The translations under genes were made by a program, and so were the position numbers. Under the pieces are notes generated by a model that did no database searches, was not told where the DNA came from, and saw nothing but the letters and a program-made list of their open reading frames with translations. Positions 16,526-60,348 of a DNA stretch of 64,000 bases are shown here, one piece after another. The stretch comes from an uncultured Pseudohongiella sp. (GTDB taxonomy: Bacteria > Pseudomonadota > Gammaproteobacteria > Pseudomonadales > Pseudohongiellaceae), in assembly GCA_902597095.1 (NCBI GenBank), contig CACJWK010000002.1, positions 1 through 64,000 on the forward strand, read 5' to 3'. The number at the start of each line of letters is the position of its first letter. The first letter of the stretch is position 1.

Positions 16526-17683
16526 CTACCTTTTCGAGCGCTCGTAGTCCAGTTGCTGAAATTCCAGGTTAAAGGAAATCGGAACAGAAACTGGAAGATA
16601 ACAGATTGCATCGTCACAGGCTTGATAATCCAGAGTACCGGATAGTGTGATGGCATCAACATCTTCCAATTGCTTTTCTATTTCTGCCGATGCATTAATG
16701 ACAGCTTCTTGTAGAAGCGTAAACGGCGCTTGATATGCAGGCACAAATTCATTCAGCGGTTCGAAGTGGTAAACTTCAGATTCCGGAAAGTCAATAGGCT
16801 CGTAATCAACAAACTCAGAAACTGCCATATTGAAACCTACAACTCGATATCCCATTTCTTCAGCACCTGGCGCGTATACATGCATATCTGGGCCAGGTAC
16901 CACTTCTACTACTAGAGAAAAACGCTTACCGTTGGTTACAATGTTGTCACTTGGATAGGCCGTGAATTTTAATTGTGCAGTTGAGCCTTGAATAGCTTCG
17001 ATAGGGGAAAGCCCAATGCCGCTTTTCAACATAACTGTCGCAGTAGAAGCACGCTCACGATAAAACTCTTCGAAGAAGCGGGAAGTGACCCGGCCATTTC
17101 CATCCAACACAAAAGTACCAGGAAATGGAGTACCATTGATCATGCGCCGAAGTTGTGGTGAATCGAATACCTCTGCAGCTACATAACGATGAATATCAGC
17201 TACTACTTCGGGGTCATCAGCATTAGGCCCAAGGCCCTCGGCCACAACGGTATTTAGGATACCGTATTCTTTTATTACAGCGGACTCATCATCTGAAAGA
17301 AGCGGAAATGTGATTCCGCGGCGCTCAGCGAATGCGGCTAAAGTTTTCTCTGAATCATAGCTAATGGCTGCAACGCCAACACCAGCTTCTGTCAGTTCTT
17401 TTAATCTGTCCTGCAACTCCACGAGTTGCGCTTTGCAATAGGGTCACCAATCAGCCGAACGATGAAATAGCAAAATGGCACCGTTTGGCCCCATGGTAGA
17501 TTGCAGAGTCTGAATTCGACCATTCTGATCTGGCAGACTAAATCCCGGCACTCGCTCTCCAACTTGAGGCCCGAGCGAGTGCACGTCGATTGCGGTTCTA
17601 CTTTGAGCGGTCGCCAGCCCGGAGATAGCATAGAGGAGCAAGGAGATAGTAGTGTGTCTCAATCTGGCAGGAGATAAGGTCAT
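16526..17683 (-). CDS. Candidate selenoprotein: redoxin domain (UPYC) fused to DsbD-N-like domain
   Basis: Read through the TGA at 17444-17446, this is one 385-residue frame. It has a signal peptide (residues 1 to about 27, ending ATAQS) and an AhpC/TSA-type redoxin domain starting VGERVPGFSLPDQNG. The redox motif is SADW-U80-PYC83. In Cys homologues this site is RSADWCPYCKAQL, so the UGA replaces exactly the first Cys. Conserved redoxin sequence continues in the same frame (GVAAISYDSEKTL, FPLLSDDES, GTFVLDGNGRV). The C-terminal 150 residues resemble the periplasmic DsbD N-terminal domain, ending in LDYQACDDAICYLP (Cys356, Cys361). A SECIS-like hairpin follows the UGA. Start: ATG 17683 gives the best signal peptide, though its ribosome site is weak. 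A periplasmic or membrane-facing thiol oxidoreductase or peroxidase is likely. The alternative is a pseudogene broken by one Cys-to-stop mutation. Confidence 0.75.
17413..17446 (-). promoter_or_regulatory. UGA codon with SECIS-like stem-loop
   Basis: On the minus strand the UGA (17446-17444) is followed after 14 nt by GCAACTC, loop GTG, then GAGTTGC (17429-17413). This is a perfect 7-bp stem. The first loop base is G, 22 nt after the UGA. Bacterial SECIS elements sit directly downstream of the Sec codon, with a small apical loop that begins with a guanine at about this spacing. The match is by eye. Confidence 0.65.
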
Positions 17684-58347: not shown

Positions 58348-59424
58348 CTACTGCCCCGCAACTGGCTCTTCAGAGTCTGACCCTGCTACTGGCTCATCGC
58401 TGTCTTCAGACATCGCCTCAGCTGCAGAGGGCGCGGGGTTTGCCTCGACCCCCGTGACCGCCTGCGGATCTCCGGAGAGATCATTATCATCATGCGGGCC
58501 AAATCTTTCAGATTCCTGAAGGTCTTCTCTACTCGGTGAGGCACCGAGGATATCGCCGTCGGCCACATCGTCTGCTGGCGCAAAAGATGCTCCTTCGGCG
58601 GTCTGGTCTGAATCGGCAGGCCGTTCGGCGCGCTGCGTCGCTGGCTCCGGAACCACCCCGTCCTCTGAATCGGAATCTGCTTCTTCGCCAAGAAGGCTCT
58701 CCGGCATTCCCATCCTGAGAATTTCATCAAGCGGTTTTTTTGACAACTCGAGCGCTTCCTCCTCTGCCAGAAGTTGTACGCGCTCCGCGTCGCTCTGCTC
58801 GAAACTCGCTTCGTCAGTGACTTCCTCCGGCAGGTCTATCACTCGTTGCTGCGCCAGTTCATCTGCAAGATCCAACTCCTGCTCAGATTGAGACAACTCT
58901 TTGATCTCAGACAGCGGTGGTAATTCTTGCAGGCTTTTAAGATTGAAATAATCCAAAAACTGTTTGGTTGTCGCAAACATCGCGGGTCTACCCGGAACGT
59001 CTCTGTAACCGACCACCCGAATCCATTCCCTGTCCAAAAGCGTGCGTATGATATTCGCACTTACTGCGACACCCCGTATCTCTTCGATGTCACCACGGGT
59101 GATAGGCTGACGATAGGTAACAAGTGCCAGCGTTTCCAGAAGCGCGCGGGTGTAACGGGGAGGACGCTCCTCCCACAGCTTTGCGACCCACTCACTGAGA
59201 GCTTGTTTGACCTGAAACCGGTAGCCTGAAGCAACCTGTTTCAGCTCAAATCCCCGATCATTACAGTCCTCAGAAATTGCCTGCATCACCTGCTTCAGCT
59301 CATCCCGGTCGGGTTGCTCACTTTTCTCGAACACTGCAATGATATTGTCCAGAGTCAGCGGTCTCCCGGCGGCAAGAAGGCAACCTTCAACGATCATCTT
59401 AACTTTGTTATCTACGTCACTCAT
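58348..59424 (-). CDS. scpB: Segregation and condensation protein ScpB with long acidic tail
   Basis: 358 residues. The winged-helix ScpB core spans about 1-175 (TYRQPITRGDIEEIRGV, then FNLKSLQELPPL). The rest, about 180 residues, is a low-complexity tail dense in Glu, Asp, Ser and Ala. The usual family length is about 180-250. It binds SMC heads through ScpA. It starts 18 bp after scpA. Confidence 0.93.
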   Translation of the reverse strand: MSDVDNKVKMIVEGCLLAAGRPLTLDNIIAVFEKSEQPDRDELKQVMQAISEDCNDRGFELKQVASGYRFQVKQALSEWVAKLWEERPPRYTRALLETLALVTYRQPITRGDIEEIRGVAVSANIIRTLLDREWIRVVGYRDVPGRPAMFATTKQFLDYFNLKSLQELPPLSEIKELSQSEQELDLADELAQQRVIDLPEEVTDEASFEQSDAERVQLLAEEEALELSKKPLDEILRMGMPESLLGEEADSDSEDGVVPEPATQRAERPADSDQTAEGASFAPADDVADGDILGASPSREDLQESERFGPHDDNDLSGDPQAVTGVEANPAPSAAEAMSEDSDEPVAGSDSEEPVAGQ

Positions 59425-59442
59425 GCGAAGTCTAGTTAAAAA

Positions 59443-60348
59443 TCACAAACCTCGAGATTTAATATGGATCGGGCCGAAGGGGTCTGACTGCACGATCTCC
59501 ACCAACGAATCTTTCAACAATTCCATGACGGCGAGAAATGTCACAACGACGCCCAGTCTGCCCTCCGCTTTGACCAGTAGCGCAACCAGCGGCACAAATT
59601 TATGCTCGGAGACCTTGTCCAGAATTTCCGACATCTTTTCCCGGGTCGACAGAGTTTCGAATTGAATGCGGTGGTGCTCAAACATGTCTGCCCGAGTCAG
59701 GACGCTCGACAGGCACAGAAGAATTGCCTCTAGTCTGACTTCCGGGTCCGGCGTGACTCTCTCAATCTCAGGTGGTGTTGCGCTCGCCAACATGATCTCC
59801 CTGTCTAATCTGGGCATTGCGTCGATGTCTTCCGCCGCTTGTTTGAAGCGCTCATATTCCTGCAACCGCCTGATCAACTGCATCCGCGGGTCGTCTTCTT
59901 CTTTCTCCTCTGCTTCCTGGCGAGGCAACAGAATCCGGGACTTGATCTCAGCCAGCATAGCGGCCATGACCATATACTCCGCTGCCAGCTCGAACTGGCT
60001 GGATTGCATAAGATCTACGTAGGACATGTATTGGTCAGTAATGTCCGAAACATTGATTTCGAGAATATCGAGGTTTTGCCGCTTGATAAGATAAAGAAGC
60101 AGGTCCAGAGGCCCTTCAAACGCTTCCAGAAAAATTTCCAGCGCATCAGGTGGAATATAGAGGTCTTTGGGTACTTCAGTGATGGCCTCACCGCCAACGA
60201 TGGCGAGCGGAAGCTCTTTTTGCTCCGGACTCGACCCGGACAAACGGTCATCGGCCCCAACCGCAGCTGGTACAGATTCTAAAGGTGATGAAGACTGCCG
60301 CTCAGGTGCTGAGGACTCTGATTTCGCTTCCGGTTCGGTCGTGGTCAA
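59443..60348 (-). CDS. scpA: Segregation and condensation protein ScpA
   Basis: 301 residues, the kleisin of the SMC complex. An acidic, Ser-rich N-terminal extension (1-65) precedes the conserved FEGPLDLLLYLIKRQNLDIL. The AAEYMVMAAMLAEIKSRILLP segment is also typical. The C-terminal winged helix is present. With scpB and smc in the same window, the full condensin is encoded here. Confidence 0.95.
   Translation of the reverse strand: MTTTEPEAKSESSAPERQSSSPLESVPAAVGADDRLSGSSPEQKELPLAIVGGEAITEVPKDLYIPPDALEIFLEAFEGPLDLLLYLIKRQNLDILEINVSDITDQYMSYVDLMQSSQFELAAEYMVMAAMLAEIKSRILLPRQEAEEKEEDDPRMQLIRRLQEYERFKQAAEDIDAMPRLDREIMLASATPPEIERVTPDPEVRLEAILLCLSSVLTRADMFEHHRIQFETLSTREKMSEILDKVSEHKFVPLVALLVKAEGRLGVVVTFLAVMELLKDSLVEIVQSDPFGPIHIKSRGL

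Follow-up and report, generated by a model that had tools for sequence, protein, structure and literature searches.

The stretch analysed here, hereafter the window, is 64,000 nucleotides of an uncultured Pseudohongiella sp. (assembly GCA_902597095.1, contig CACJWK010000002.1, positions 1 to 64,000), and its minus strand carries a gene (16526..17683) that seems broken by a stop codon and appears to encode a two-domain selenoprotein. A peroxiredoxin-like domain with selenocysteine (Sec, U) at residue 80 is followed by a relay-type domain resembling the N-terminal domain of DsbD (DsbD-N). Both the selenoprotein status and the relay-type domain are supported by comparison with related sequences; the export, electron flow and substrate of the protein are what we infer. 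We consider it probable that this selenoenzyme is exported, that it reduces peroxide (or a disulfide), and that its own relay domain passes on the electrons with which a DsbD-type membrane protein re-reduces it.

The frame of 385 residues runs from an ATG at 17683 to a TAG at 16528–16526 and contains a single in-frame TGA at 17446–17444, translated here as U80 in the context SADW-U-PYC. The Pfam AhpC-TSA family (PF00578; peroxiredoxin/thioredoxin fold) matches across this codon, over residues 41–200 (17084..17563, minus strand), at 99.2 bits against a cut-off of 26. The domain holds both U80 and C83, which form a UxxC motif (U80-P-Y-C83) with U80 in first position; the TxxU motif of classical Sec-peroxiredoxins is absent, the sequence reading ADW-U. 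As a chance control, we took the ten window frames that have an internal TGA and overlap little with other genes; this frame and three of the other nine were scanned with Pfam, and no domain crosses the TGA in any of those three, among them the scpA–scpB frame at 58348–60348. The protein is 42–88% identical to nine aligned relatives, and its start Met is matched by Met in two of them. Its N-terminus is probably a signal peptide of the Sec export pathway (residues 1–26, cleavage at ATA/Q; 17606..17683, minus strand), as judged by eye from the translation, and residues 1–4 and 6–26 have a predicted local distance difference test score (pLDDT) below 50 in the structural model. An earlier note, made from the letters of the window alone, had described a TGA at 17444–17446 splitting a redoxin domain, a conserved frame of about 300 codons beyond it, and a perfect 7-bp stem with a GUG loop 14 nt downstream. 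All of this holds, with 305 codons between TGA and TAG and with the strand, which was not named, being minus. Every NCBIfam model stays below its cut-off on this protein, so a standard annotation pipeline may well split the gene in two.

The UGA is conserved among relatives. Our related-loci counts cover the best 80 of 210 relatives found in a scan of genome contigs, and the codon at the site is TGA in all 81 matches that span it (79 of the long form, to which the window gene belongs, and two of a third family; 79 of the 80 loci). A search of 146 genomes, many of them shared with the contig scan, gave matches to the protein, of whatever level, in 139; among the matches listed, at least 43 genomes carry the long form with UGA. 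By record title or tree label, carriers of the UGA gene belong to the Pseudomonadota, Acidobacteriota and Gemmatimonadota. In long-form orthologues both the UGA and the frame are retained: four loci (L038, L039, L043 and L076) do have extra stops, but these lie 81–83 codons before the UGA and, since the window start aligns at 79, fall upstream of the start. Further stops are listed in two rows of a shorter paralogue (G048:C33 and G083:C44).

More distant relatives have Cys at the site, as the earlier note had claimed. The phylum of locus L156 (titled Holophagales) was sampled with 297 genomes, 42 of which match at E ≤ 1e-25; among 27 loci from this sample (L170–L196, partly picked for having no listed stop), 20 have TGA and seven have Cys. 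Many genomes of the genus have a single UGA in the short AhpC/TSA paralogue of about 200 residues (L078, L080–L082, L086–L089); in four other genera of the same family this paralogue has Cys (L079, L083, L084, L085). The third UGA family, about 33% identical, adjoins the long form at L093:6671–6718 and L152:3851–3898, and the genomes of these two loci thus carry Sec redoxins side by side.

A hairpin resembling a bacterial Sec insertion sequence (SECIS) element lies just 3′ of the UGA (17413..17429, minus strand). After a 14-nt spacer, a 7-bp stem (17429–17423 with 17419–17413) encloses the GUG loop (17422–17420). We aligned 84 distinct 48-nt stretches, pooling the long, short and third forms and dropping stretches with N. 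Stem cells are paired in 98.1% of cases, compared with 92.3% in shuffles, slid versions of the stem collapse, and the apical loop G25 is invariant (84/84). Changes on both sides occur in three of the seven stem pairs, and the column pair 21–31 reads GC in 40, AU in 38, GU in six and AC in none of the 84. In the long form these two columns are synonymous positions of Gln and Leu codons, so their covariation is not forced by the protein sequence; a shared G+C bias could contribute to it, but would hardly explain the absence of AC. In Cys copies the stem has largely gone: 46 of 77 pairs are kept in 11 Cys loci, against 141 of 147 in 21 TGA loci (nine of which have the same stem). One Cys copy (L182, TGC at about 466) retains all seven pairs, and the best tRNA-Sec match in its genome is a tRNA-Ser; judging from these sequences, it is apparently a recent Sec-to-Cys change with a likely fossil SECIS. 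The exact UGA-hairpin pattern, searched across the window's own genome, recovered this copy only, leaving room for other selenoproteins.

The earlier note had named absence of the sel genes, besides further stops or frameshifts in close relatives, as grounds for rejecting its reading; the genome of the window (2.4 Mb, 77% complete) has them all above cut-off: selA (545.4 bits), selB (385.8 bits), selD (289.7 bits) and a tRNA-Sec (65.3 bits), which ARAGORN also calls tRNA-SeC. Across the 43 listed carriers of the long UGA form, a tally that leaves out long-form fragments in two genomes (G020 and G009), 34 have a tRNA-Sec match, and so do 22 of the 24 with completeness of 90% or more; one of our two carrier tallies for tRNA-Sec applied stricter filters. 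Matches of at least 61 bits are present in nine of the 11 genomes behind loci labelled Acidobacteriota or Gemmatimonadota. Twenty genomes of the L156-phylum sample were also scored: the 13 with TGA copies reach 60.6–77.2 bits, in the six with two-domain Cys copies the best scores are 46–50.6 bits, all on a tRNA-Ser by ARAGORN, and the one with a single-domain Cys copy (G231) scores 69.7 bits. In two loci the gene is physically linked to the machinery. L144 (277–6122), from a metagenome-assembled genome (MAG) titled Proteobacteria, is a complete sel locus in the order selD, tRNA-Sec, selB, selA, selenoprotein gene; L191 (1255–4501), from a genome of the Acidobacteriota sample, reads selenoprotein gene, tRNA-Sec, selA (585.6 bits) and the start of selB, whose 222 bits fall under the cut-off of 242 because the locus ends there. 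These are the only two of 107 loci with a tRNA-Sec within the available flanking DNA. When neighbours were clustered across the related loci and the window, every cluster was confined to 26 loci or fewer and distances were scattered, so function is not read from context, linkage to the sel locus excepted.

The earlier note described a redoxin protein; this fits the first domain, but the description of the whole missed a C-terminal domain (residues 251–365; 16589..16933, minus strand) that looks DsbD-N-like, weakly by Pfam and clearly by comparison of predicted folds. PF11412 reaches a best E of 7.7e-8 across the family, with 45 of 46 sequences at E ≤ 0.001. The domain was modelled alone, because the fold searches of the full-length model were filled by the N-terminal domain, and the model matches the fold of the DsbD N-terminal domain (nDsbD) together with its Cys pair. 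That pair, C356-x4-C361 (16601..16618, minus strand), is kept in 46 of 46 (C356) and 45 of 46 (C361) sequences; in the alignment with E. coli DsbD it falls on the pair in YQGCADAGFC. A PDB sequence search with a profile of the domain returned a single match, at E 0.6 and unrelated by name, and the protein has no Pfam match to the membrane domain or the C-terminal thioredoxin domain of whole DsbD. A DsbD-type frame, 907 residues or longer, is present in the same genome; its DsbD membrane domain scores 73.1 bits, above the Pfam cut-off, and its thioredoxin-like end shows, by eye, the motif AAWCITC; the frame scores 118 bits on the NCBIfam DsbD model, under its cut-off of 330. This frame (L210:1–2724) seems duplicated in its N-terminal periplasmic part, and its best NCBIfam model is TsoB, a rhodanese/DsbD fusion-like selenoprotein (128 bits, far below the cut-off of 805); the frame itself is without UGA.

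In the mechanism that we propose, the hairpin would recruit SelB with Sec-tRNA-Sec, so that U80 is inserted, and the mature protein would present two domains with four redox residues, U80/C83 (peroxiredoxin-like) and C356/C361 (DsbD-N-like). The target of U80 would most likely be a peroxide, with a protein disulfide or sulfenic acid as less likely alternatives. C83 would resolve the intermediate as a Se–S bond with U80, which the fused C356/C361 pair would then reduce. This pair would in turn be re-reduced by a DsbD/ScsB-type membrane protein using cytoplasmic electrons, and the AAWCITC end of the DsbD-type protein in the same genome is the candidate reductant.

Several observations weigh against this reading. 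Single-sequence folding of the 48-nt stretch gives −9.3 kcal/mol with a z of −0.72, and 47 of 200 shuffles fold as well; the energy being unremarkable, the stem exceeds chance only by comparison, and we dropped folding energy as evidence for the hairpin in favour of covariation. In the window protein, PF11412 stays below its cut-off (23.1 against 25 bits). No tRNA-Sec match was found in nine of the 43 listed carriers, two of which (G040 and G088) belong to the 24 with completeness of 90% or more. In G152 and G154, which also have the UGA gene, the best scores are only 46.8 and 50.8 bits, each on a tRNA-Ser(UGA). Four of the six Cys genomes formally exceed the Rfam cut-off of 47 bits and were discounted on the ARAGORN call, and one of the six (G271) has a UGA copy beside its Cys copy, with a tRNA-Ser as its best match. 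Incompleteness of MAGs may explain the carriers in which tRNA-Sec was not recognised. Lastly, the PDB alignment sets C83 under the Cys of AhpE and U80 under the Thr of its TGIC motif. Given the roles generally assigned to these AhpE residues, this alignment makes a peroxidase role for U80 unsure.

A thioredoxin-like reductase therefore stays a close rival, namely a selenoprotein that acts in the manner of thioredoxin or ResA on disulfides or sulfenic acids, with U80 as the N-terminal nucleophile of a CxxC-type site. The UxxC arrangement is that of thioredoxin, ResA is among the matches, and the best NCBIfam matches, none of which reaches its cut-off, include both thiol peroxidase and ResA. We regard this as a serious possibility, somewhat short of an even chance. 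That the UGA is a true stop, leaving a pseudogene or two separate proteins, is very improbable. Some carriers lack a tRNA-Sec match, and in the same window (58348–60348, minus strand) the TGA at 59445 is an ordinary stop that closes scpA, with scpB next in the same frame. Against a true stop stand the UGA in 81 of 81 matches, the conserved frame beyond it, the covariation of the stem and the linkage to sel genes. The stop of scpA also means that UGA is not simply reassigned in this genome, and decoding as Cys or Trp through a changed code or a near-cognate tRNA, with no selenium, is scarcely credible given tRNA-Sec, selA, selB and selD and the absence of the hairpin from most Cys copies; no support for it was found, although no genome tRNA search was aimed at such a suppressor.

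For the selenoprotein reading, a quick tree of 112 rows, which left out a single-domain Cys copy of 179 residues (L194), intermixes gammaproteobacterial, acidobacterial and gemmatimonad copies. Its six Cys rows imply six Sec/Cys changes; long branches lead to several of the distant rows, including some with Cys, and make their placement unsure. Of 369 genomes sampled from the class, the window's own alone has the fusion at E ≤ 1e-30, which makes transfer of the fusion gene between phyla likely, though single cases could be mislabelling or contamination of MAGs. We put forward tentatively, at a shade under even chances, that these genes form a new family of envelope reductases built as one chain, with a DsbD-N-like donor fused to a Sec peroxidase. 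It would be common to one gammaproteobacterial lineage, the Acidobacteriota and the Gemmatimonadota, sometimes beside the sel locus, and would change from Sec to Cys or back as the Sec trait is lost or gained.

The earlier note called the protein a likely new selenoprotein. Covariation, Cys homologues and sel linkage bear out the selenoprotein; the site itself is of a known kind. Peroxiredoxin-like UxxC selenoproteins were reported from the Sargasso Sea in 2005 (PMC1088965), the main text of the 2008 Global Ocean Sampling (GOS) survey gives 225 UxxC sequences as Prx-like 1 (PMC2398784), and both a 2022 and a 2026 review list them (PMC9312934, PMC13188914). As described in the text of these sources, those proteins (pfam00578), known from marine samples, share with the window protein the AhpC/TSA domain, UxxC in place of TxxU and a bacterial SECIS, and no DsbD-N-like fusion is described for them. 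Among the fusions set out in section 9 of the GOS main text, none involves DsbD. The word DsbD is absent from that main text and from the text of the 2022 review, and appears once in that of the 2026 review, for TsoB. On these texts the two-domain architecture is new here, though the fusion may have been seen earlier in the supplements, where some of the 225 GOS sequences may carry it. The GOS Unknown_3 fusion likewise joins a Sec peroxiredoxin-like domain to a Cys-bearing domain; as described in the main text it has three Cys and a CxxC, unlike the two Cys and CxxxxC of the window protein (PMC2398784). Compared with the N-terminal domain of DsbD/ScsB, the relay domain stands C-terminal to the peroxiredoxin-like domain, lacks a membrane part and has CxxxxC instead of CxxxxxC. 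The SelL-related redox protein NF040769 has the redoxin fold in common, and its 46.9 bits fall far under the 120-bit cut-off. A functional parallel concerns Caulobacter, for which one passage describes electrons passing from ScsB via TlpA to a peroxiredoxin (PprX) against envelope peroxide (PMC5403849). There, too, a membrane electron transporter feeds an envelope peroxiredoxin, but a distinct protein serves as relay and the passage makes no mention of selenium, whereas the window protein has relay and peroxidase on one chain. In the open literature we found no paper linking a selenoprotein with Pseudohongiella or with nDsbD, and none of the papers on selenoproteins, DsbD and periplasmic peroxiredoxins deals with this fusion, as far as titles and the beginnings of abstracts tell.

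A gene seemingly broken by a stop codon thus appears, from comparison of its homologues, to be a conserved bacterial selenium-containing redox enzyme whose second domain is probably its electron source. The relay-type domain points to a possible way of keeping a Sec enzyme reduced in an oxidising compartment. The switches between Sec and Cys, together with the loss of the hairpin in most Cys copies and the six genomes in which no tRNA-Sec was recognised, offer a natural test of why Sec is retained or lost.
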